This document shows positions 1 through 10,847 of a stretch of DNA of 64,000 nucleotides, piece by piece (position 1 is the stretch's first letter; each line of letters opens with the position of its first letter). The stretch is from assembly GCA_003990705.1 (NCBI GenBank), contig AP018318.1, positions 2,297,501 through 2,361,500 on the forward strand, read 5' to 3'. The position numbers and the translations under genes were made by a program. The DNA is from Nostoc sp. HK-01 (GTDB lineage: Bacteria; Cyanobacteriota; Cyanobacteriia; Cyanobacteriales; Nostocaceae). A model generated the notes under the pieces. It was given only the letters and a program-made list of their open reading frames with translations. It was not told where the DNA came from and made no database searches.

Positions 1-199
1 CAATCCGCACCATGAAGAATTCATCTAAATTAGAACTGAAGATGGCTAAGAACTTCAGTCTTTCTAAAAGTGGTGTGCGTGAATCGCAGGCTTCGTGCAG
101 TACTCTATGATTAAATTCCAGCCAGCTTAACTCTCGGTTGAGATAATATTGTGGATCGTTGAGATTGATGGGATTGGCGCTCTTTTTAGATTTCGGCAT
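1..199 (-). CDS. ppk1: Polyphosphate kinase 1, N-terminus (partial, runs off the window)
   Basis: Reading the minus strand from an ATG at 197-199 gives an open frame to the window edge, 66 codons. The visible protein begins [19 protein letters not shown] and contains the PPK1 N-terminal signature: [14 protein letters not shown], a segment matching [14 protein letters not shown], and [11 protein letters not shown]1 reversibly transfers the gamma phosphate of ATP to polyphosphate through a phosphohistidine; the catalytic histidines lie beyond the edge. The next gene, the usher-like gene ending at 335, is on the same strand and upstream, 135 bases away, with AT-rich repeat-like sequence between. 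The family call is firm from the N-terminal motif, though only about a tenth of the usual 700-residue protein is visible. Confidence 0.9.
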
Positions 200-334
200 G
201 ACGATCTGCGGGTAGCCAGAAGTAGCCCACACGACTGGAGAACAATAATCATAGTAGTGGAAATCTGTGATGGACGAGAAGTTGGTTTTTTACAAAAGCC
301 AGACAATTTGAGATTTTAAATTTGAGATTTTGGA

Positions 335-3300
335 TTATTTTTCTTTAATTTCTTTGGCTGCTGTCGAAATTGGTAATTGCAGATTTTGGTCGTAGACGAA
401 TTCGTTGTGAATATCTACCTCGCGTTTGGGGAGAGCCTCACTATTCGCGATCGCATCTTGAGGCGGAACCCGTAATGTATACTTGCCAACAGGAACACCA
501 TCTACACGATATAGACCAAATTCGTCAGTCATCGCTGATAACACTTCTGTACCAGCAATATTTACTAGTTCTACCCGCACATCAGACATTGGCTGGCCTG
601 CAACATCAGTAATTCGACCAGCTAAACCGTATTCTAATCTGGCGGCAAAATCTACATTGGTAACACCTGCTATTCCCACCTCAGCTACCCTACCTGTTTT
701 TGGTAAGGTAAGTTCTACAGGTAATTTATCTGGGTCAACTTCTACTCGATAAACACCTTCTGGTAAACCACCAACAAAGAAGTTCCCGCTAGAGTCTGTT
801 GTTGCACCACCAACAGGCTTGTTGTGGTTGTTTATTACTCTTACACTAGCGCCTTGTAAATCATAACCTCGATTTTCTCCTGAGACAGCAATGCGTCCAG
901 CGATCGCACCCCGTTCCTTACTCAGAGAGTTAAAGCTACTTGGAATAGCCCTACCACCAGCAAAGGATAAGTCTGATACTAATGATACTGTCAGGCGATC
1001 GTCATTAAATCCGCCAAAAGCATTTCTTCTCCCAGCAAAGGGAATACCTTGATATTCAACTCTGGCAAATAATCCTGGCAGTACTTGCATACTAGCACCA
1101 ACAATCGGGCCAAAATTCCCCTCACGGTAAGCCAGCCCCATTCGCCAACTCAGTTGTCTAATATTTGGAGGATTATAGTTTAATGCTGCTGTATAGCGAG
1201 TGGCATAACTACCACCAAAATCAGTACCTAAAGAAACTTGATAGTTGCGATTAAAGTCATAACTTAGACCAGTAGTGTATCTATCACCAAACGTATTAAA
1301 AGATAGTCGTGCCGCACGATTTACTTGATAATAAGCATTGAATAAATACTGCCCATTAATATCAGGCCTACCGTTTAAAGATAAACGACCAAAAGGTCTT
1401 AAAGAGAAAGTAGGCGATATATATTCATTTGTATCACTACCGCTTTTACGACTACGTGCTAGAAACCCTAACTGAAAATTATTATTAAATCGATAACTTA
1501 CTTCGGCACTATGGTTAAAGAACTCACCAGAGTTTTTCCCATTCCGATATCCATTAGGATAAGATTGAGAATTAGCTGTAATATCTAATTTTCCTAATTG
1601 AATATCTAAATCTGTATTGTAAGCTAATTTACCAAACGAATTACCTACACTAGCAGATAAAACAACTGGATTAGCAACTCGCCAAATTAATCCAGCTTGG
1701 CTTTGTAATGTGTTAGGAATAGCTTGTAGAGAACCTTCAAAAGTTAAATTGTTAGAAAGACCTTGACGAACTTGATAAAAACCTGCAAATTGACCAGCAT
1801 CAGTACCATTATTATTATCAAACAAAGAATTCTGTACTAAATTTCCAGTTAAACCTACACCAGCTAATTGAACATTCCCACCTGCTGGCAGTAATAAATC
1901 AGAAGAATTAATTCTTACAGAACGAATCTCACTAGGAACATTCAGATTATTTCGGTCAAAAACTAAAATTTCAATTTGATTATTTTGCCCAACAGGTAAA
2001 TTGACATCAACAAATTCGTATCTACCATCAAATCCGACCTGCTGCTGTGCTACAACAACTCCAGAAACTCTAAGTTGCACAAAACTAGCGGCTGGAACTA
2101 CACCTTGGAAAGTTTGTAAAGGTCTAGAACGTCTAGGTAATAACTCATTGGCACTGTTAGTTTGATTAAAGCGATTAGTTGGTATATTGGTATAACCAAA
2201 TTGCGCTCCTGTCAAATTCAGACTATTGACTAATGGGTTAATACCAATTTGTTGCCGACCGACTTGATAAAGAAATCCACCATTGCGTTTATAGTAAAAA
2301 TATTCAGATAAATCAGGAGAGTTTTCAAAATTATTATTGACACGTACCCGCCATAAACCACCTGCTAATCTGCCACCCAGTAGTGTAGTGCTGCGTAAGT
2401 TTACATCCCCAGCATTACTAACAATATTTAACTCTTGCCTTAAATTAGAAAATCCGTTGAGTGGGGCAAATACATCTGGTTGCAAGTTGACTGCTTCACT
2501 TGTATATGCTGTACCATTACCACGCCAAGGTAAATCAATAATTAAAGCTAGATCCAAAGAGTTAAATTCAATATTTGAAGACAGTTTATCCCTAATAAAG
2601 GCATCACTAATATAGTTAACACCTTTGAAATTTTGAATATCATCTTCAGCCAGATTAATTGTGCCTAAAGGCGTGTTTAAATATGTATTATTATCTTTTG
2701 TTTCAACTGTAATACCAGCAAGTTTAGCAAAATCATCCAAAGGCAACAGTAAAGTATTTCCTTGACGAATAACATCTAAGTTACCTACTTCTCTCCTGTT
2801 AATGATTACCCCAAGCAATAAATTTTCTAAATTTGAGCTTGCTGTTTGAGTGAAAGTTATGCGTGAGTTATCATCTACATTTAATATATTCGTGCTGACA
2901 TCTACCCCTTGTTTCTTCGGCTGTACTTCAGCCGGTTTAGTATTGAGAGGTTTTTGAATTGATTCTGCTGATGAATTTGGCGCAGGAGTGGGGTTAGTTG
3001 CAGTTTTTTGTGGAACCTGTGGATGAGATGGTTGTTTTGTTAAAAACGCTGATAAATCTTCTGATTTTTTTGATGTCTGGATGGTAGTTGGAACTTCCGC
3101 AGGTACATTGGCAACTTTATATTGAACTGATGAATGAGGCGGTTGTTTGGTTAAGAAACTAGCTAAATCATGAGAATTTATCGAAGTTTCAGTAATTGCT
3201 TCAGTAGATTCCGTTGTACTAACATCAGGAAACTGTGACTGAGATGCTTGTTTACCTAAAAAAGTGCCAAAATCATCAGCAGTGGTATAAGAATCTTTGG

Positions 3301-4489
3301 TAGTTACTTCTGAGAGTGCTGTAACTGTTTGTGACCTTTGTTTAGTGACAAAAGTTGCTAAATCTTCTGGTGCTTTAGCCGCAATTGTAGTTGACGCAGA
3401 GGCTGTTGTTGTTTGACCCTGTTGTGGTTGTTTGGTCAAAGAACTAGTTAATTCTTCCGATTTTTTGGCAGCATCAGCGGTGCTGGCAACTTCAACTTTA
3501 GTATTTAATGCCTGTGGTTGAGGTGATTGTTTTAATGTTGTTGAGTCAGTCTCACTAGTAGCGACTTTAGCAGGTGCGGTGGTTCTTGTACGCTGAACTG
3601 ATGCTTTTGGTTTGGTCTTTTTGTTGGGAGTTGTAGCAGCAACTTGAGTAGATGCTTGAACTTTGCGTTGAGCAGAAGATTGTAGTGGTTTTTTTGTTGT
3701 GGATGCTGAATTATTGGTAGTTACAGCAGCAATTTCAGTAGGTGCTTTGACTTTCTGTTGAATTGAAGGTTGTGACGGTTGTTTTGTTAATGACGCTGCT
3801 GAGTTGTCTGGTGTTGTTATAGCAACTTGAGCAGGTACTTTGACTTTCTGTTGAACTGGAGGTTGTGACGGTTGTTTTGTTAATAACGCTGCTGAGTTAT
3901 CTGGTGTTGTTATAGCAACTTGAGCAGGTGCTTTGACTGGTTCACATTTCACCAGTTGCTTAGTCAATAAATCAGGAGACTCTTCTGATTGTCCCGAACT
4001 TGCACTAGTTAAAGCTACTTGTGCAGATATTGTAGCTGTTTTGCATTGATCTAGTTCTTTCGTTGACTTGTCTGATATTTCGGGAATTCCACTAGTAAAG
4101 GAAATATCAGAGAGTACTGTACCTGACTTCTTCTGTGGAACTGATGCTTTATCAGAATTGTCCTCATCTGACTTGTCTGATATGTCGGGAATCCCAGTTG
4201 TAAAGGAAACATCAGCGAGTATTGTATCTGACTTCTTCTGTAATACTGGCGCTTCATCAGAATTACTTTCAGCAGAGGATTCCCATTCTTCTAAGCCATT
4301 TGTGGAAAACTCCGCTTCTGGTGTGGTTTCTGGCGGAATGGGGGTCGCTACTGTATGCCGTGCAGTTTTGTAGGCTGGGTTAGCACTATTTTTATCCGGC
4401 GCTGTAATAGGAGTATCTTGCGCGGGTAGAGTAGTAACTTCTGCTGGTGGTAAAGGCGGTGAAGCTTGGTAGATCATACTTGTATACAA
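335..4489 (-). CDS. Fimbrial usher-like outer-membrane protein with long disordered N-terminal region
   Basis: Predicted 1384 residues from a TTG at 4489; an in-frame ATG at 4477 is the likelier start. Residues 1 to about 545 are low-complexity, rich in Thr, Ser, Pro, Gln and Lys, with repeated blocks such as KVKAPAQVAITTPDNSA and LTKQPSQP. From about 558 comes an usher-like N-terminal domain (INRREVGNLDVIRQGN). Near 780-870 lies a plug-like beta domain (FQGVVPAASFVQLRVSGV). A region of about 300 residues of alternating beta strands like an outer-membrane barrel follows, then two carboxypeptidase-regulatory-like beta domains (about 1195-1275 and 1285-1365). Ushers assemble and secrete pilus subunits delivered by a periplasmic chaperone; the chaperone and two subunit candidates lie just upstream on the same strand. 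No signal peptide is seen, and the in-frame stop at 4517-4519 allows no longer start. The usher call is by architecture and context, not by a clear catalytic motif. Confidence 0.72.
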   Translation of the reverse strand: MYTSMIYQASPPLPPAEVTTLPAQDTPITAPDKNSANPAYKTARHTVATPIPPETTPEAEFSTNGLEEWESSAESNSDEAPVLQKKSDTILADVSFTTGIPDISDKSDEDNSDKASVPQKKSGTVLSDISFTSGIPEISDKSTKELDQCKTATISAQVALTSASSGQSEESPDLLTKQLVKCEPVKAPAQVAITTPDNSAALLTKQPSQPPVQQKVKVPAQVAITTPDNSAASLTKQPSQPSIQQKVKAPTEIAAVTTNNSASTTKKPLQSSAQRKVQASTQVAATTPNKKTKPKASVQRTRTTAPAKVATSETDSTTLKQSPQPQALNTKVEVASTADAAKKSEELTSSLTKQPQQGQTTTASASTTIAAKAPEDLATFVTKQRSQTVTALSEVTTKDSYTTADDFGTFLGKQASQSQFPDVSTTESTEAITETSINSHDLASFLTKQPPHSSVQYKVANVPAEVPTTIQTSKKSEDLSAFLTKQPSHPQVPQKTATNPTPAPNSSAESIQKPLNTKPAEVQPKKQGVDVSTNILNVDDNSRITFTQTASSNLENLLLGVIINRREVGNLDVIRQGNTLLLPLDDFAKLAGITVETKDNNTYLNTPLGTINLAEDDIQNFKGVNYISDAFIRDKLSSNIEFNSLDLALIIDLPWRGNGTAYTSEAVNLQPDVFAPLNGFSNLRQELNIVSNAGDVNLRSTTLLGGRLAGGLWRVRVNNNFENSPDLSEYFYYKRNGGFLYQVGRQQIGINPLVNSLNLTGAQFGYTNIPTNRFNQTNSANELLPRRSRPLQTFQGVVPAASFVQLRVSGVVVAQQQVGFDGRYEFVDVNLPVGQNNQIEILVFDRNNLNVPSEIRSVRINSSDLLLPAGGNVQLAGVGLTGNLVQNSLFDNNNGTDAGQFAGFYQVRQGLSNNLTFEGSLQAIPNTLQSQAGLIWRVANPVVLSASVGNSFGKLAYNTDLDIQLGKLDITANSQSYPNGYRNGKNSGEFFNHSAEVSYRFNNNFQLGFLARSRKSGSDTNEYISPTFSLRPFGRLSLNGRPDINGQYLFNAYYQVNRAARLSFNTFGDRYTTGLSYDFNRNYQVSLGTDFGGSYATRYTAALNYNPPNIRQLSWRMGLAYREGNFGPIVGASMQVLPGLFARVEYQGIPFAGRRNAFGGFNDDRLTVSLVSDLSFAGGRAIPSSFNSLSKERGAIAGRIAVSGENRGYDLQGASVRVINNHNKPVGGATTDSSGNFFVGGLPEGVYRVEVDPDKLPVELTLPKTGRVAEVGIAGVTNVDFAARLEYGLAGRITDVAGQPMSDVRVELVNIAGTEVLSAMTDEFGLYRVDGVPVGKYTLRVPPQDAIANSEALPKREVDIHNEFVYDQNLQLPISTAAKEIKEK

Positions 4490-4662
4490 ATGCTGGTATG
4501 ACAGCCTAAAAAAGTTCTAGGCTGGAAATTAATTGCAGAGACAGACAAAGTAAATAACTTAAAAAATTAGAGAATTTCGGTTGAGAACTGGCAAAATCTA
4601 TATGATGTGAGGAGATATTAGAAGATTACCAGAAGTGAGAAAACTGATATTTAAAAGCTGTT

Positions 4663-5553
4663 TTATTTACTTCTGGATGTAACTGTAAAAGCAATGCCTT
4701 TATCAATTGCACCGCCATTCAAATCACCATTAACATCTAAAATATATTGACCAGGAGGCAGTTTTTTACTGATATTAAGGATTAATTGACGACGAGTACC
4801 AGGTAACACAGGCGTTGAAGGTAACATTCCAGCATCTAACACACCATCTGGTTTCTTATTTTTTTGTGATTGCAAGTTAGCTATTTGCTTAGTAGCACTC
4901 GCACCCGGATATTTGTTAGCAGCCCAGATTGCATATTGACCATTCATTCGCACATAAGCATTACCTTGGCTAGAAATGTCAAATGCAGCTTTGAGGTTAT
5001 TGGCTTTACTATCAACCGAAATTGAATTGAGAACACCTAGTTTTTTGATACTGCCAACATAAGCATAGACAGCAACACCAAAACGTCCCAAAACTCTAAC
5101 TCCAGACCTGGGTTTTTTGTCTTGGTCAGAATTGACTTCTTCAACAAAAATTAAAGCGCGGTGTTCTCCAGCTGGAGGTTTGACACGAGGACGAACTGAA
5201 AAACGCACGGTTTGGGTTTTGCCAGGAGGAAGAGTAAAGGTTACAGGGTTGACGGTAATCCAGTTATCTAGAGATTGCTCGCTTGATTTTACAGGTTGAA
5301 TTTCATTTTTTTCGTCAATTGTCCAACCTTGGATATAAACCCTAAATGTTGCGGGTTGATTATCAACATTAACGACACGAAAAACCTGAGTTTTGGGTTT
5401 TTTATCATCAAGTTTTAATTCAAATCTCGGTGGGCTAACCCCTATTGAGATTGCAGAAGTATGGGGACAATTTAATGCTAATGTGCTTAGTGTTAATAGC
5501 GCAGTAGCTCCAATTTTATAAATGCTGTTAACTAATTTTTGCTGCTGATTCAT
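4663..5553 (-). CDS. PapD-like periplasmic pilus chaperone
   Basis: 296 residues with an N-terminal signal peptide (hydrophobic stretch about residues 14-27, cleavage probably near HTSA). The mature protein has the pattern of the PapD N-terminal immunoglobulin domain: ISIGVSPPRFEL, FRVVNVDNQPATFRVY, then VTFTLPPGKTQTVRFSVRP and AGEHRALIFVEE. These correspond to the strands that hold the subunit by donor-strand complementation. A second beta domain ends the protein (QYILDVNGDLNGG). It lies between the small exported proteins and the usher-like gene, all on the minus strand, with 19 bases to the 174-codon reading frame upstream, so co-transcription is likely. Its role would be to fold subunits in the periplasm and pass them to the usher. 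The fold assignment is good; the identity of its clients is inferred. Confidence 0.8.
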   Translation of the reverse strand: MNQQQKLVNSIYKIGATALLTLSTLALNCPHTSAISIGVSPPRFELKLDDKKPKTQVFRVVNVDNQPATFRVYIQGWTIDEKNEIQPVKSSEQSLDNWITVNPVTFTLPPGKTQTVRFSVRPRVKPPAGEHRALIFVEEVNSDQDKKPRSGVRVLGRFGVAVYAYVGSIKKLGVLNSISVDSKANNLKAAFDISSQGNAYVRMNGQYAIWAANKYPGASATKQIANLQSQKNKKPDGVLDAGMLPSTPVLPGTRRQLILNISKKLPPGQYILDVNGDLNGGAIDKGIAFTVTSRSK

Positions 5554-5572
5554 TGGTTGATTGAGTGAAGAT

Positions 5573-6082
5573 TTAAATCCCGGTAAAAGTTATAGTTAAT
5601 GTGCCTGAATAAACACCGGGAATTTTGATATCTGAAAAGTCTAAGTTAAAGATAGCTCCTCCCTGTAGAATTCTCTTGGCAGAATTGGGATCTATAGTTG
5701 GGTTAATAGGAGTAATAGAAACTTTAATTTGTTCACTAATACCTCCTTTACTCAGACTATTAGTAGTTCCCTGATCTGAATTCAAACCATAACTAACAGA
5801 TATTTGATTTTCATCTTGATTCGCATCAAGTTCTAGTCTCCAAATGTTTGAGACTGTACGATTCACTGTTGTAGTCAATGAAGGTGCGGTTAATGATGGA
5901 CTAATTGATGATTTGTTAATTATGCCATCGTTGACTTGATTAGAACCTGCCGAAAAAATATCAGTGACTTCAATTTTGTCTAGAGTTAGGGTATTACCAG
6001 GTAAACCTAATTGCCCAAAAGTTTTGGGGTGAGCCAACAGAAATACAGACAAAAATGTACTGAGAAATAATAGTCGGTTCAT
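5573..6082 (-). CDS. Exported pilin-like minor subunit candidate
   Basis: 169 residues from the ATG at 6082. A TTG at 6097 would add five residues, but the ATG places MNRLLFLSTFLSVFLLAHP directly at the N-terminus as a normal signal peptide. The mature part is beta-rich and Ser/Thr/Asn-rich, with no recognised enzyme motif. It ends in GVYSGTLTITFTGI, closely resembling the last residues of the next small protein upstream (EYLTITATGI). A shared C-terminal strand of this kind is typical of secreted beta-sandwich subunits handled by chaperone-usher systems. Position immediately upstream of the chaperone supports a structural or tip subunit role. It could instead be an unrelated exported beta protein; only its context and C-terminus argue for a subunit. 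Confidence 0.6.
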   Translation of the reverse strand: MNRLLFLSTFLSVFLLAHPKTFGQLGLPGNTLTLDKIEVTDIFSAGSNQVNDGIINKSSISPSLTAPSLTTTVNRTVSNIWRLELDANQDENQISVSYGLNSDQGTTNSLSKGGISEQIKVSITPINPTIDPNSAKRILQGGAIFNLDFSDIKIPGVYSGTLTITFTGI

Positions 6083-6233
6083 CAGATGCTTACCCAAACT
6101 AATTCAGAAAATGACCTTGAGATAATAAGTTTCGGGAAGAGCAATTAAATTAATATGGTAATTTTGCTCTCAGCCAGAACTGTTGATTTTTGGCTTTTGT
6201 TGAGAAACAACTCAAGGTCAAAATATATGATGT

Positions 6234-6839
6234 CTAAATACCCGTAGCTGTGATGGTCAAATATTCGTTAGGATTAGAGTACGTACCAGCTGATGAGGCG
6301 TTTGCGAAGTTAAATGTAAATGCTACAGATCCTTCAATAGGAGTTGCGTTCGTTACATCAAGCCCTGGTGCTGTCGCAGTTCCACCAAGTGCGCTGATTG
6401 TCACACCTACATTAGAGCTAGAGGCCGTATCACCACCAAGATAAAGCGTTCCAGTGGTGCCACCGTTAAATTCAACAGAGTGCTGAATCTGACCGGTAGC
6501 ACCAGTACTAGTACCCCAAATTCTATAAATTAAAATATCTCCTGTTGTGATATCTCCTGTAGTGGGAGTTAAAGTACCGTTAGGAGCAGGAAGTGTAGTA
6601 ATAGTACCGTCAGAAGAAAAGAATCCAGGAGTATCGTTTACGGGTGCGGCAGATCCTAAAAACTCTGCGCTAGTAGGCTGAAAAGTCAGGCTTTTGTAAG
6701 TTTGGATGTAAATAACTTCTGGAACTTCGACTTGGAGTGGGACATCAACAGAAACGGCTCTAGCAGGCGCAGATAATAAAGTATTCGCCAGAGAAACTGC
6801 GCCTAGAGTAAATGCTGCTAAAAAGAATTTCTTTTTCAT
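6234..6839 (-). CDS. Exported pilin-like major subunit candidate (spore-coat-U-like)
   Basis: 201 residues. A clear signal peptide, MKKKFFLAAFTLGAVSLANT, ends near ARAVS. The mature protein is Gly/Thr/Ala/Ser-rich and beta-structured, low in charge, and ends with EYLTITATGI, the same kind of terminal strand as its downstream neighbour. Size and composition fit SCPU/Csu-type pilus subunits of archaic chaperone-usher systems, and it is the first gene of the minus-strand run subunit, subunit, chaperone, usher. No cysteines are visible in the mature part, so there is no intramolecular disulfide of the type common in FimA. Being first in the run, it may be the most highly expressed. Subunit assignment is inferred from composition, terminus and gene order. 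Confidence 0.62.
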   Translation of the reverse strand: MKKKFFLAAFTLGAVSLANTLLSAPARAVSVDVPLQVEVPEVIYIQTYKSLTFQPTSAEFLGSAAPVNDTPGFFSSDGTITTLPAPNGTLTPTTGDITTGDILIYRIWGTSTGATGQIQHSVEFNGGTTGTLYLGGDTASSSNVGVTISALGGTATAPGLDVTNATPIEGSVAFTFNFANASSAGTYSNPNEYLTITATGI

Positions 6840-7290
6840 GGGGGCTAAATAATTACTCTTTAGAAAAAGATGACAAAATCAATGTAGCCGTTGTAGCAAA
6901 AATAGCACCTCAGAGAATTTACCAAAGTCTACGCATTTTACATATATTTGCTTTGGTAAAGCTACTCTATAAAGCTCCTGTAAAAACAGGAATTATTTAT
7001 GCTAATTTATTCCTAAGTATATTGATATAAACTTAATTAATATATCTTTGTCCACGGTGAAATTACTATTATTAAGTCGGGTTATCTAGGCTTAGAACAA
7101 GCAGTTTATGAGTTAAAATTAGGAGAAAGATGTAAAGTTTTTATTAAATCAACTTCTAAATTGATAATGTAGACTCAATTTACTTGGCTCTTATGGAACT
7201 TTTTAGCCATAAAGTCTTGTAATCTATTATATTTTTAGCTATTAGTTAATGTTCTCAATAAATCTACTTAAGTAGATTTTGGTTGTAAGT
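6840..7290. other. Gene-free divergent region
   Basis: This 451-base AT-rich gap lies between the divergent pilin-like operon (minus) and the histidine kinase (plus) and should hold both promoters. No conserved promoter boxes could be assigned with confidence. A short open frame at 7041-7172 (YIFVHGEITIIKSGYLG onward, 43 codons, no upstream start codon) looks protein-like and may be a gene remnant. Confidence 0.5.
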
Positions 7291-8703
7291 ATGTTTCAAG
7301 CTACTCGCCGTCGATTGGCTATTTGGTATACTACCGTAACAGCGGTGTTGTTATTACTGTTTGCCAGTGGTGTTTATTTATATGTCCGTAGTACGTTGGT
7401 GGAGCGAATTGACGATACTTTAAATCATGTGGTGGAAATTGTAGAGCGATCGCTTGTGATTGAGCCAGTAAATAACGAAACTAATAAACTCCGCATCAAT
7501 ATAGAAGCCAGCTTTCGCAACAATGCCAATAATGTAGAGGATGACCACATTGACTTGGAATGGTTTAGTCCTACAGGGAAATTACTTTGGTCAACTTTAT
7601 CAGAACCTCTCAATATCCCTATTCACGGTAATCATACTGGTGAAACAGTCCGTGTACCCAAACAAGACCAATGGGGGGACTCAGAACTATCGTTGCGTCA
7701 AGTCACCCAGCGCGTGGAATTTGGCCGCCAAGTCTTAGGATATCTGCGTGTAAGTCACCCTTGGTTTGAAGTTACCAAACCCAGTCGCCAGCTAATTTTG
7801 GATTTAGCACTGGGGATTTGGTTAATGTTAGTGTCTGTAGCTGCAAGTGGCTGGTTTCTTTCGGGGAAAGCAATGGAACCAGTAGGTGATTCTTATCAAA
7901 GACTCAAGCAATTCACCGCTGATGCTTCCCATGAACTGAGAAGTCCCATTACTTTGATTCAAACTAATGTACAAGTTGCTTTAAGCGAATTAGAGTTAGT
8001 AGAAACAGAAGTGAGTACTTCTACCAACTATCGTCAGCAGTTAAAGGTAGTGGAACGACTGACACAACGCTTAGGTAAGTTGGTTAATGATTTATTATTT
8101 TTAGCACGACAAGATAGCGGTATCAGTAAAGATACATTCTCTCCTTGTCCTTTAGATGCCTTGTTGATGGAAGTTATCGAAGAACAGCAACTTCTAGCCA
8201 GTGAAAAAGGCATTGCTTTGAATTTAAACTTAGTTGATCCTCCTGTTGCTGACACTAACCCCGAATTATTAGAAAATTGGTTCACACTAGCAGGTAATTG
8301 GGATCAACTCGTCAGACTATTGACAAACTTAATTAGTAATGCATTACAGCATACTCCTGCTGGTGGAAAAGTCAATGTAGAATTAGCACGCCAAGAAGGA
8401 ATCAGCCGCGTTTCCAGAATGCGCGTCAGTACTGCTCAGTTACAAATTAAAGTAAGTGATAACGGAGTTGGGATTCCTACAGAAGCATTACCACGGTTAT
8501 TTGACCGCTTTTACCGGGTAGATCCTGCACGTACGCATAAAAAAAGTGGAAGTACAGCGACTGACAGTGCTACAGGTTCAGGATTGGGATTAGCGATCGC
8601 GCAAGCTATTGTTGAACATCACCAAGGTCAAATTCAAGTAGAAAGTACCATCGGTAAAGGTACAACTTTTATTGTCACTCTACCCATAACTCTAGAGTCT
8701 TAA
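7291..8703 (+). CDS. Membrane sensor histidine kinase
   Basis: 470 residues from the ATG at 7291; an in-frame TTG at 7279 would add four residues but is less likely. Architecture: a transmembrane segment at about residues 14-36, an extracytoplasmic sensor region of about 130 residues, a second transmembrane segment near 170-190, then HisKA with the phospho-acceptor in DASHELRSPI (His214), and HATPase_c with the N box NLISNALQHTPAGG, DNGVGIP and GSGLGLAIA. It should autophosphorylate and pass phosphate to a response regulator. It resembles the RppB/NrsS type of cyanobacterial kinase in layout, but no response regulator gene is present in the window, so partner and signal are unknown. The kinase assignment is secure; the stimulus is not readable. 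Confidence 0.93.
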   Translation: MFQATRRRLAIWYTTVTAVLLLLFASGVYLYVRSTLVERIDDTLNHVVEIVERSLVIEPVNNETNKLRINIEASFRNNANNVEDDHIDLEWFSPTGKLLWSTLSEPLNIPIHGNHTGETVRVPKQDQWGDSELSLRQVTQRVEFGRQVLGYLRVSHPWFEVTKPSRQLILDLALGIWLMLVSVAASGWFLSGKAMEPVGDSYQRLKQFTADASHELRSPITLIQTNVQVALSELELVETEVSTSTNYRQQLKVVERLTQRLGKLVNDLLFLARQDSGISKDTFSPCPLDALLMEVIEEQQLLASEKGIALNLNLVDPPVADTNPELLENWFTLAGNWDQLVRLLTNLISNALQHTPAGGKVNVELARQEGISRVSRMRVSTAQLQIKVSDNGVGIPTEALPRLFDRFYRVDPARTHKKSGSTATDSATGSGLGLAIAQAIVEHHQGQIQVESTIGKGTTFIVTLPITLES

Positions 8704-8902
8704 ATTTTATTTTATTTTTTTGTTTCCCGTGACAGATGAATCTATCTAACATTACTTACTAACTTATATAGCAAAGCTGGCATTTTCAAATCATAAATTT
8801 GGGCTACCACAGTTTACCGTCTACTCTTTTGAGTATTCCGATAAACTGATGATTTATCTTGCTTAAATGCAGCTAATAAATAAAGTTACTGGAGGAGATT
8901 AG

Positions 8903-9382
8903 ATGCAAACTCCTATTGCAGAAAAAAATTTACCTTTTTTAGAAAAAGTAAAACAAAACAGTGGTTTAGCAGACCTTTATGATGCTAGAGATATTACAGA
9001 AGTAGTATTTCGAGTTATGCGTGACCTAATGACTACAGAAGCGGCTGATCGAGTTGAAGGAGAACTACACAAACCAGTCGAAGAAACTGAAGATAAATCT
9101 CTGCAAATGGAAATTGCCGAACTGTGGCATGATACAAATCCGATTGTGAGCTTTTTGAGTCGCGTACGTCCACCTTGGCAAGGCCCTGGTATTTTTAAGA
9201 TTGATAGCGATCGCTTTTTATTCCGAGTAGCGAATGAAGGCACTATGCCACCAAATGTAGACCGTGAACAGGTGGTGAAAGCAGTTTTCTCTGCAACTAA
9301 AGATGAATTATCGCCAGAGAGAATTGAAGAAATTGCTAGTTGGTTACCAGATAGAGTTCGTCAACTTTGGGAAGAAGCTTAG
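8903..9382 (+). CDS. DUF2267 domain protein
   Basis: 159 residues, preceded by a strong ribosome binding site (ggaggag, about 6 bases before the ATG). The protein is acidic and helical with no signal peptide or membrane segment. The pattern LYDARDITEVVFRVMRDLMT, then ADRVEGEL, and later VVKAVFSATKDELSPERIEE and SWLPDRVRQLW matches the DUF2267 family, which carries two similar helical halves ending in a conserved LP..v..lw motif. Its biochemical function is not established; homologues are common in cyanobacteria and often stress-related. It follows the histidine kinase by 199 bases on the same strand, but a shared transcript is not evident. Family call is confident, function unknown. Confidence 0.8.
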   Translation: MQTPIAEKNLPFLEKVKQNSGLADLYDARDITEVVFRVMRDLMTTEAADRVEGELHKPVEETEDKSLQMEIAELWHDTNPIVSFLSRVRPPWQGPGIFKIDSDRFLFRVANEGTMPPNVDREQVVKAVFSATKDELSPERIEEIASWLPDRVRQLWEEA

Positions 9383-9809
9383 ATTCTTCAACATAGCTGG
9401 CTAAAATTTTTGGGTTATGAATTGTAATTTACTTGCAATTTATAACTCAAATATCATTTATCAAAGTTTTAGTGCAATTGCTAATATCCCACTCCAGAAG
9501 TAATTTCATTCTTGATATTTCAACACTCTAGCTAGATACAAAAATACAAGTTAACAATTAAATTTAATGATTGTAAGTCAAAAAAAATACCCTTGAATTA
9601 AGACTTATTAATTAGCCTCATCTTTATTGCATTTCTCCAAAAATAGGCAAGTATAAAAATAAAGTTTGGGATTGATTACTCTATCTAATCAAAATAAAGT
9701 TTCCAGTCACAAACTAATACTATAACTGCTGAATTCATTTTAATTGAATTCACTACTTTCTCAAGTTTCCAGACAGACGCTTACTACTCAATTTGCTCAG
9801 GAGTTAAGA
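9383..9809. other. Gene-free AT-rich intergenic region
   Basis: 427 bases between the DUF2267 gene and the repeat-bearing exported protein. A weak palindromic stretch follows the stop codon (aatttttgggttatgaattg and a later attacttgcaatttataac). GAATTC occurs twice close together (9730-9752). No RNA gene or recognisable operator is seen. Confidence 0.4.
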
Positions 9810-10847
9810 ATGAATATGACTTATCAAAAATTACGCAAGTTTACTGAGGTATTCAGTGCTGTTTGTGGTGGTTTATTGATTAGTGTGCCTGCAATTTCTC
9901 AAACAGCAGTAGCGCAACAACCAACTTCTGTAACACCGCAACAGTCTACCGCTAAAATTAACCCTTGCCCTAGTATTTTTTATGAAGAACCCCACAACAG
10001 TCGGGTTATAGTACCGCAAGGATGTCCGCCCAATGCACTCACTCAAAGACTAGCTAATCAAGGCCTTCTTCCTACGGCTCGTACTACAACTACATCCACT
10101 CCATACCAAGCAGGTGTAGGTGGTGAAACACCGCAGGCTGGTGCAAGTGCAATTAATCCTTGCCCCCGAATTTTCTATGAAGAACCTTTCAATAGTAGAA
10201 ATGTTGTACCTCAAGGATGTCCGCCTAACGCTTTCTCACAAGGACAACAACCGCAAGGGAAGATTTCTAATCAAGGTGTACCTGTAACTCCGCAAAGTTC
10301 TACAAGTGGAACCACCACAAATCAAACAACGGTGCCATCTCAAGGGGAAACATCTAGTCAAGGTGTACCTGTAACTCCGCAAAGTTCTACAAGTGGAACC
10401 ACCACAAATCAAACAACGGTGCCATCTCAAGGGGAAACATCTAGTCAAGGTGTACCTGTAACTCCGCAAAGTTCTACAAGTGGAACCACCACAAATCAAA
10501 CCCCTTCAGTATCTCAACAACAAACACCTAGTACAACGATCGCTCTTGCCAATGGTAAAGTTAATGTGAAATTGATTAATGATACTGGAGCTAAAGTAAC
10601 TTACCAAGTGATTGGCGATACAGAAGCGCGATCGCTAGAAGGTAAGTCAAATGTTATGTTACAAGGTATCAGCGCCCCAGTTACCGTTACATTCCAAAGA
10701 GAAGACGGCGGACTATTGTTAGTCACACCCCAAGCGTCTGCTGAACAACCAGGAATGTTAGAAGTAACTTTGAATGAAGCTACTGACTTAGCTCAAGATA
10801 CTAAGGCTATGCGAATTCAACAAAACGGTTCAGTATTCTTGAATTAG
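9810..10847 (+). CDS. Exported protein with paired NPCP motifs and tandem 29-residue repeats
   Basis: 345 residues from the ATG at 9810, chosen because ggag sits 7 bases upstream and because it puts a signal peptide at the N-terminus (VFSAVCGGLLISVPAISQ, cleavage near AVAQQ). A TTG at 9744 would extend it without benefit. The mature part has two copies of a Cys-containing motif, INPCPSIFYEEPHNSR and INPCPRIFYEEPFNSR, each followed by VPQGCPPNA. Next come almost three copies of a 29-residue Ser/Thr/Gln/Pro-rich unit beginning GVPVTPQSSTSGTTTNQ, encoded by near-identical 87-bp DNA. The final 100 residues form a beta-type domain (VNVKLINDTGAKVTYQVIGD). Four conserved cysteines, two per motif, could form disulfides in the periplasm. 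I do not recognise a named family; a cell-envelope role is inferred from export and repeats. Confidence 0.75.
   Translation: MNMTYQKLRKFTEVFSAVCGGLLISVPAISQTAVAQQPTSVTPQQSTAKINPCPSIFYEEPHNSRVIVPQGCPPNALTQRLANQGLLPTARTTTTSTPYQAGVGGETPQAGASAINPCPRIFYEEPFNSRNVVPQGCPPNAFSQGQQPQGKISNQGVPVTPQSSTSGTTTNQTTVPSQGETSSQGVPVTPQSSTSGTTTNQTTVPSQGETSSQGVPVTPQSSTSGTTTNQTPSVSQQQTPSTTIALANGKVNVKLINDTGAKVTYQVIGDTEARSLEGKSNVMLQGISAPVTVTFQREDGGLLLVTPQASAEQPGMLEVTLNEATDLAQDTKAMRIQQNGSVFLN
10272..10501 (+). repeat. 87-bp tandem repeat, about 2.6 copies
   Basis: Units start at 10272, 10359 and 10446, each with caaggtgtacctgtaactcc. The period of 87 is a multiple of three and the copies look identical except at the last, truncated end. 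The near-absence of silent differences points to recent expansion or gene conversion. Confidence 0.92.

Follow-up and report, generated by a model that had tools for sequence, protein, structure and literature searches.

Chaperone-usher loci described in print from cyanobacteria combine SCPU subunits and a PapD chaperone with a PF00577/FimD usher, as set out in passages of PMC4390875 and PMC5853447, and the Synechocystis usher UshA (slr0019) is dispensable for flocculation according to a passage of PMC6755745. Archaic pilin domains contain cysteines marked as invariant in a section of PMC4654587, and a passage of PMC10104325 places archaic pili in cyanobacteria. The open PMC full-text literature yielded no usher described with a carboxypeptidase regulatory-like domain and nothing joining chaperone-usher, cyanobacterial and archaic. 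Here, we analyzed a locus at positions 335 to 6839 of a 64,000 nucleotide stretch of Nostoc sp. HK-01 DNA (the window). The analysis confirmed a chaperone-usher operon. It belongs to a divergent family that escapes the Pfam Usher model, is retained throughout the window's clade and occurs in many filamentous cyanobacteria. A first-pass annotation had called such systems little described in cyanobacteria, which is correct for the window's family within the open PMC literature searched and not for SCPU/PapD/PF00577 loci, already described in the passages of PMC4390875 and PMC5853447.

Gene content of the operon

All four ORFs of the proposed locus were found on the minus strand in the order claimed by the first-pass annotation, with transcription running from subunit B through subunit A and the chaperone to the usher. 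The operon, its parts and its neighbors are as follows.

7279..8703, plus strand: divergent sensor histidine kinase, upstream neighbor, with HisKA and HATPase_c
6234..6839, minus strand: subunit B, 201 aa
5573..6097, minus strand: subunit A, 174 aa from a TTG; internal ATG at 6082
4663..5553, minus strand: PapD-like chaperone, 296 aa
4502..4524, minus strand: hairpin CAGCCTAGAACTTTTTTAGGCTG, ending 24 nt ahead of the usher ATG
335..4489, minus strand: longest form of the usher-like ORF, 1384 aa from a TTG at 4489
335..4477, minus strand: usher from its conserved ATG start, 1380 aa
4454..4478, minus strand: start region of the usher, comprising T at -1, the ATG and codons 2-8, with nucleotide-level conservation
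4445..4477, minus strand: Pro-rich usher N-terminus MIYQASPPLPP, in the place of a signal peptide
2828..4477, minus strand: P/T/S/K/Q/A-rich low-complexity N-terminal extension of the usher
2534..2827, minus strand: N-terminal periplasmic domain of the usher, core residues 26-123, from an AlphaFold2 model with approximate boundaries
959..2455, minus strand: usher beta-barrel, core residues 150-648, with a plug-like insertion at about 1955-2119
632..919, minus strand: first C-terminal SdrD-B/CarboxypepD_reg-like domain of the usher
365..631, minus strand: second C-terminal CarboxypepD_reg-like domain of the usher
1..199, minus strand: start of ppk1, downstream of the usher, recognized from its translation; the window edge cuts the gene

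Both subunits carry an apparent signal peptide, with h-region scores of 2.23 for subunit B and 2.32 for subunit A on our own hydropathy measure. The signal rule used throughout is likewise our own hydropathy rule and not SignalP; it requires that the highest mean over 11 residues close to the N-terminus reach 2.0 and is passed by 51 of 59 subunit A proteins, 52 of 62 subunit B proteins and 52 of 61 chaperones. Cleavage of subunit B was judged by eye to occur after ...SAPARA and is followed by VSVDVPLQVEV, a stretch of alternating hydrophobic residues that represents a candidate donor strand. The predicted Ig-like pilin domain of subunit B ends in EYLTITATGI and subunit A ends in GTLTITFTGI. 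The near-identical C-terminal strands pointed out in the first-pass annotation are thus both real, sharing 7 of 10 residues by eye. As judged from sequence, subunit A is a divergent relative of subunit B, the two families being related over 98 columns in the C-terminal half (hhalign 96.2%, E 2.8e-9). The model of subunit B predicts a pilin-like Ig fold with an unpaired N-terminal stretch. It is similar to pilins of the Fim, Pap and Csu systems, with Z scores in the middle range, and pilins make up 46 of the best 50 matches listed. These structural matches include FimA, FimG and PapA as well as the Csu chains 6fqa, 7zl4, 6fjy, 6fm5 and 6fq0.

Profile searches with SCPU (PF05229) gave no match to subunits A and B of the window at E 1 and none to 51 subunit B rows at E 0.05. 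Neither mature subunit in the window contains a cysteine. Across the loci, 61 of 62 subunit B proteins are free of cysteine after residue 30; the corresponding part of subunit A contains no cysteine in 23 of 59 proteins and two or more in 33 of 59. Just two subunits are encoded in the window, and inspection of its ORFs by eye revealed no tip adhesin of the two-domain kind.

The chaperone matches PF00345 (PapD_N) at 24.5 bits, above the Pfam cut-off of 23. The best PDB sequence matches of its profile are the pilus chaperones 4ncd and 4y2o, both weak (E 0.04 and 0.047). Its signal peptide is apparent by eye, the h-region score of 1.79 being slightly below the 2.0 threshold.

The usher family and the spread of the operon

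The barrel protein is a real usher, a plugged outer-membrane barrel of the FimD/PapC kind. Its profile matches Pfam-recognized cyanobacterial ushers of the PF00577 type (98.5%, E 1.6e-15), and the best structural matches of its model, which is of modest quality (pLDDT 69), are the FimD and PapC pores, at 9-13% identity to the FimD/PapC rows in the structural comparison. Archaic ushers are not named in that comparison, an absence that, like any other in it, counts neither for nor against them. PF00577 itself matches neither the window usher nor anything in its own genome, nor, at E 0.01, any member of a diverse set of 22 ushers from the window's family, while Pfam scans found CarboxypepD_reg and SdrD_B in all 22. 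The window usher belongs to a separate cyanobacterial usher family with SdrD-B/CarboxypepD_reg domains. With the usher core as query, 80 of the 217 genomes searched in the window's taxonomic family gave a match at E 1e-30, as did 22 of 291 class genomes at E 1e-5; another class-level search placed the usher family in 40 of 388 genomes. PF00577 ushers are present in 53 of 282 class genomes. At least seven genomes appear on both usher lists, and in these seven the two kinds lie at different positions.

For comparison of gene order, 61 loci, presumably mostly from Nostocales genera, were fetched in one scan of named genome contigs. Of the 60 loci with an usher ORF of at least 850 residues, the window among them, 58 have two or more subunit genes followed by the chaperone and the usher, all in the same orientation. 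The exceptions are L143, which is cut by a contig end, and the Chlorobiaceae locus L157; two further fetched loci, L141 (fragmented usher) and L152 (contig end), fall outside this count. L155 and L156 are identical in sequence, so the layout is kept in 57 of 59 distinct loci. This conservation excludes a chance arrangement. Taken together, the PapD_N match, the profile homology of the usher, the FimD/PapC and pilin matches of the models and the conserved gene order bear out the chaperone-usher system that the first-pass annotation had proposed.

The surroundings of the operon are also conserved. A relative of the histidine kinase adjoins the operon in 54 of 60 loci and a ppk1 relative lies directly downstream in 45 of 60, with contig ends among the misses; the ppk1 orthologue of one locus (L097) contains PP_kinase domains. 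A regulatory tie between the histidine kinase and the operon may be inferred. Some relatives carry an extra gene on the same strand just upstream of the operon, of the PPC type in 18 loci, RTX in 5 and CAP in 3, with one example of each domain-scanned. Such a gene could be an adhesin or a cargo.

The start of the usher

The usher starts with MIYQASPPLPPAEV in the window and with MLYLALPPTPPPIV, MFYQPSTPPPP or similar sequences in relatives. The h-region score of the window usher is 0.52; the first-pass annotation had made no mention of the absent signal peptide. Our Pro-rich start rule is matched by 55 of 60 ushers, with variants of the motif seen by eye in three others, L104, L139 and L154, and from this conserved start none of the 55 passes the hydropathy rule for a signal peptide, the top score being 1.95 (L153). 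When each ORF is instead read from its farthest upstream start, 6 of 60 ushers pass. L142 and L157 have real-looking signals; L104, L112, L117 and L150 pass via in-frame residues ahead of the motif, which we judged not to be conserved. A second, overlapping set of 41 loci gives the same picture of signal-less ushers except for L080, L081 and L085, whose 12-residue means of 2.21, 2.73 and 2.11 near the ORF start exceed 2.0. The idea of an N-terminal motif general to cyanobacterial proteins was rejected: a loose M..P..P..P start rule has 54 distinct matches among 980 ORFs, and all but one of these are ushers or N-terminal pieces of ushers (53 of 54). The sample comprised ORFs of at least 150 codons in 1.63 Mb (the window and L057-L157, overlapping copies included), and being mostly usher neighborhoods it says little about whole genomes.

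The start is followed by the low-complexity extension, which is about 550 aa long in the window and 112-633 aa (median 309) in 53 ushers and, from its composition, presumably disordered. In the window it is built partly of 93- and 105-bp tandem repeats. In L058 the usher frame is broken and the extension is divided between two ORFs.

Two general explanations for the missing signal peptide were considered and rejected. A shared signal peptide in another frame was discarded, as a signal-like ORF occurs in the last 300 nt upstream in only 6 of 54 loci (L099, L112, L117, L118, L150 and L153); these are mostly dissimilar, L112 and L150 being alike, and no such ORF (0) appeared in the reverse-complement control. 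Fusion of chaperone and usher by read-through or frameshift is not a general answer because an in-frame stop lies close upstream of the usher start in most loci, within 20 codons in 46 of 54 and within 5 codons in 15 of 54. The geometry of individual loci would allow such a fusion: in L174 an upstream gene that is chaperone-like by eye shares the usher frame, with one stop codon and 15 nt between the two, and in L124/L125 the open reading frame of the usher overlaps the end of the chaperone gene. Across the loci, chaperone and motif lie 46 to 818 nt apart.

For 51 ushers a quick tree was built, taking 20 of the 60 near loci, 22 of the 30 loci of the family search in 388 genomes and 9 of the 16 PF00577 loci, with the cyanobacterial PF00577 ushers as outgroup and without Csu, Cup, Fim or Pap references. 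The outgroup stands apart on a starred branch, and L157 has a very long branch. All 18 tree rows of the window's clade are signal-less, while the next branch, L142 (Cyanobacteria bacterium UBA8803), is signal-bearing. We assigned the signal labels ourselves: of the 22 distant rows, 15 are labeled signal-bearing, 5 signal-less and 2 were left open. L169, L173 and L179 were labeled signal-bearing by eye despite weak or displaced scores, and L160 and L168 were left open. Signal-less starts of roughly similar character are found in the distant ushers L158, L162, L163, L166 and L174 and in the PF00577-type ushers L195 and L202, the last labeled by eye though scoring 2.02. Signal state changes seven times on this tree and starred branches force at least four changes. 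The signal-bearing neighbor and the other signal-less lineages suggest that the signal peptide has been replaced repeatedly in cyanobacterial ushers.

The start region is also constrained at the nucleotide level. In 25 ushers picked by the start MLY-AL (L155 and L156 both included), third-position conservation from codon 2 to codon 8 is 1.00, 0.92, 0.96, 1.00, 1.00, 1.00 and 0.80, compared with a mean of 0.70 for 171 core codons of invariant residues, 20% of which reach 0.85. Among 48 ushers starting with MLY, MFY or MIY, the commonest third base of codons 2-8 is found in 38-43. T occupies position -1 of the ATG in 53 of 54 ushers, L119 having A, but precedes only 5 of 38 chaperone, 9 of 48 subunit A and 6 of 50 subunit B ATG starts. 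When allowed up to three mismatches, the start-region pattern occurs once in each of 11 of 12 usher-bearing genomes and is absent from the twelfth; the backward control gave 2 matches in all. The silent-site conservation and the T at -1 indicate that the start region carries a nucleic-acid signal in addition to its codons. This constraint could reflect translational control or be the sign of another start than the apparent one. The hairpin at 4502..4524 is shared with the window's near relatives and is not universal. A general conserved RNA hairpin upstream of the usher was rejected, the folding of the upstream 75 nt being mostly ordinary (median z -0.7; 20 of 54 loci below -1 and 11 of 54 below -2), and Rfam searches of positions 1-9000 returned just three sub-threshold matches.

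Proposed function, alternatives and known systems

We consider it highly probable that the locus encodes a divergent chaperone-usher system in which Sec-exported subunits polymerize by donor-strand complementation into a surface fiber or coat, with non-standard export of the usher. Both subunits would cross the inner membrane via Sec and would then be held and capped by the chaperone. Donor-strand exchange at the usher would place the VSVDVPLQVEV strand in the next subunit's groove to yield a polymer, and the product may serve attachment as a thin surface fiber or coat. In the usher, the usual C-terminal domains are probably replaced by the two SdrD-B-like domains. The low-complexity extension probably serves as a flexible periplasmic tether that catches chaperone-subunit complexes across the peptidoglycan, which is thick in cyanobacteria.

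The lack of a recognizable Sec signal at the conserved usher start indicates that the usher passes the inner membrane by means other than a standard N-terminal signal peptide. Either the Pro-rich start belongs to a non-classical route or translation begins in a hidden way. The Pro-rich motif is the sole conserved candidate for usher export that we found. A fuller version, in which a short Pro-rich N-terminus (roughly M-x-[YP]-...-PP-x-PP), leading into a long extension of low complexity, took the place of the Sec signal several times, the barrel is exported without a classical signal and the mRNA stretch is also regulatory in the window's clade, seems to us unlikely. That the signal is only apparently missing is a possible if doubtful reading. 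Usher translation would then start elsewhere, through an upstream non-standard start, a frameshift or chaperone read-through, and the ATG region would be a nucleic-acid element (RNA structure, small-RNA site or protein site) instead of or besides a start codon. The near-invariant silent sites within codons 2-8 of the 25 ushers (0.80-1.00, with six of the seven reaching 0.92 or more, against a core mean of 0.70), the nearly invariant T at -1 (53 of 54) and the upstream hairpin of the window's lineage would fit such an element, and L104, L112, L117 and L150, together with L080, L081 and L085, pass the signal rule from the longest ORF start. The shared frame in L174 and the overlap in L124/L125 would fit read-through. 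However, upstream in-frame stops within 20 codons in 46 of 54 loci (within 5 in 15), signal-like ORFs in only 6 of 54 loci that mostly do not resemble one another (control 0) and the 46 to 818 nt gaps between chaperone and motif argue against it, as does an usher extension that stays open across hundreds of codons.

Regarding the product, our preferred fiber or coat has to be weighed against systems that build no pilus and either lay a coat or export both subunits as soluble or matrix proteins, which we regard as a tentative possibility. A chaperone-usher-like pathway reportedly takes part in spore coat formation in Myxococcus. The presence of only two subunits, the absence by eye of a two-domain tip adhesin from the window and the PPC, RTX or CAP gene directly upstream on the same strand in some relatives are in line with this reading, but subunit B shows traits expected of polymers, a candidate donor strand and, in its model, a pilin-like fold. 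The first-pass annotation had instead favored an ordinary archaic (Csu/sigma-type) pilus operon. The placement of archaic pili in cyanobacteria in a passage of PMC10104325 and the Csu chains among the structural matches of subunit B speak for this assignment, but it did not hold up against the profile searches: SCPU finds nothing in the subunits and PF00577 nothing in the usher. With the window subunits also free of pilin cysteines, and with a starred branch of the quick tree separating off the outgroup of cyanobacterial PF00577 ushers, an archaic operon appears improbable.

As the Pfam Usher model misses this usher family, which 80 of the 217 genomes in the window's taxonomic family carry, counts of surface fibers in heterocyst-forming cyanobacteria are probably too low. 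Should the signal-less usher truly be exported, it provides a test case for an outer-membrane barrel crossing the inner membrane without a signal peptide; if it is not exported in this way, the locus points to an unusual translation start. The question can be checked in a transformable Nostoc or Anabaena strain carrying the operon.

Among known systems, the cyanobacterial CccS/CccP/Slr0019 (UshA)-type loci, according to passages of PMC4390875, PMC6755745 and PMC5853447, resemble the window in combining subunits, a PapD-like chaperone and an usher, often in one operon, but have SCPU (PF05229) subunits and a PF00577 usher, neither of which is matched in the window. The window usher departs from this type in being signal-less, in its pair of SdrD-B-like domains at the C-terminus and in its long extension of low complexity. 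Csu of Acinetobacter and CupE of Pseudomonas, as presented in sections of PMC4654587 and PMC10104325, share with the window the subunit-chaperone-usher logic, and their Ig-like subunit with an alternating hydrophobic N-terminal strand has a predicted counterpart in subunit B; in contrast to them, the window is without pilin cysteines, an SCPU match or a recognizable tip adhesin. Type 1 (Fim) and P (Pap) pili provide the best structural matches of the window's usher pore and many of those of its subunit, whereas the window usher differs from FimD and PapC in its C-terminal domains, its start without a signal peptide and its low identity of 9-13%. The distant cyanobacterial CarboxypepD_reg/SdrD_B ushers, which beyond the near clade are 16-22% identical to the window core, have the same domain set as the window usher.

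Start region and reading frame of the usher gene

The conserved start of the usher gene is an ATG at window position 4477 on the minus strand, within a stretch whose silent positions are conserved:

Window 4454-4478, minus strand: usher start region, silent positions conserved

The base immediately preceding the ATG (position -1) is T in 53 of 54 cases and the starts of the partner genes differ. At L058, a locus in the single-contig genome of the close relative G438 with a 93% identical usher core, the N-terminal extension is split into two ORFs, with the MIYQ start residing on a 224-residue ORF and the usher on a separate ORF of 925 residues. This split may represent phase variation, decay or a sequencing error. 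At another usher locus, L174, the usher is in the same frame as the chaperone-like gene upstream of it, the gap consisting of one stop codon and 15 nt.

Operon copies and a Chlorobiaceae locus

Two operon copies that differ from each other are found in Calothrix sp. NIES-4101 (L107 and L119). Mastigocoleus testarum also has two loci, L155 and L156, on separate contigs; their sequences are identical, and they may represent an assembly duplicate. A contig of a Chlorobiaceae MAG (L157:1-6528) encodes an usher fragment with 27% identity across query residues 382-846. After this fragment come a chaperone gene that is only distantly related and another usher-like ORF, which weakly matches an iterated profile (E 2e-4); the arrangement hints at transfer or contig mixing.

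Genomic neighborhood of the operon

The operon is flanked by two genes that are widely kept among the 60 loci of the neighborhood comparison, and a repeat-rich ORF is located nearby:

Window 1-199, minus strand: ppk1 (polyphosphate kinase), 45 of 60 loci
Window 7279-8703, plus strand: divergent histidine kinase, 54 of 60 loci
Window 9744-10847, plus strand: 367-residue ORF with visible tandem repeats

A relative of a GGDEF response regulator is encoded farther downstream at 44 of the 60 loci. The 367-residue ORF contains VTPQSSTSGTTTNQT-type tandem repeats and a repeated block, NPCPxIFYEEPxNSRxVVPQGCPPNA; it gave no Pfam match above cut-off, and at 11 loci the operon has a related gene upstream.

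In the same comparison, additional same-strand genes are present upstream. Relatives of a PPC-domain protein directly precede subunit B at 18 loci, for example:

L105:1767-4487, same strand as subunit B: PPC-domain protein, 906 residues

The PPC-domain assignment is based on a domain scan of this example and, for the other 17 loci, on relatedness to the PPC-domain protein. Relatives of an RTX-repeat protein and of a CAP+PPC protein are found upstream of the operon at 5 and 3 loci, respectively. The products of these upstream genes are possible adhesins or cargo of the chaperone-usher system.
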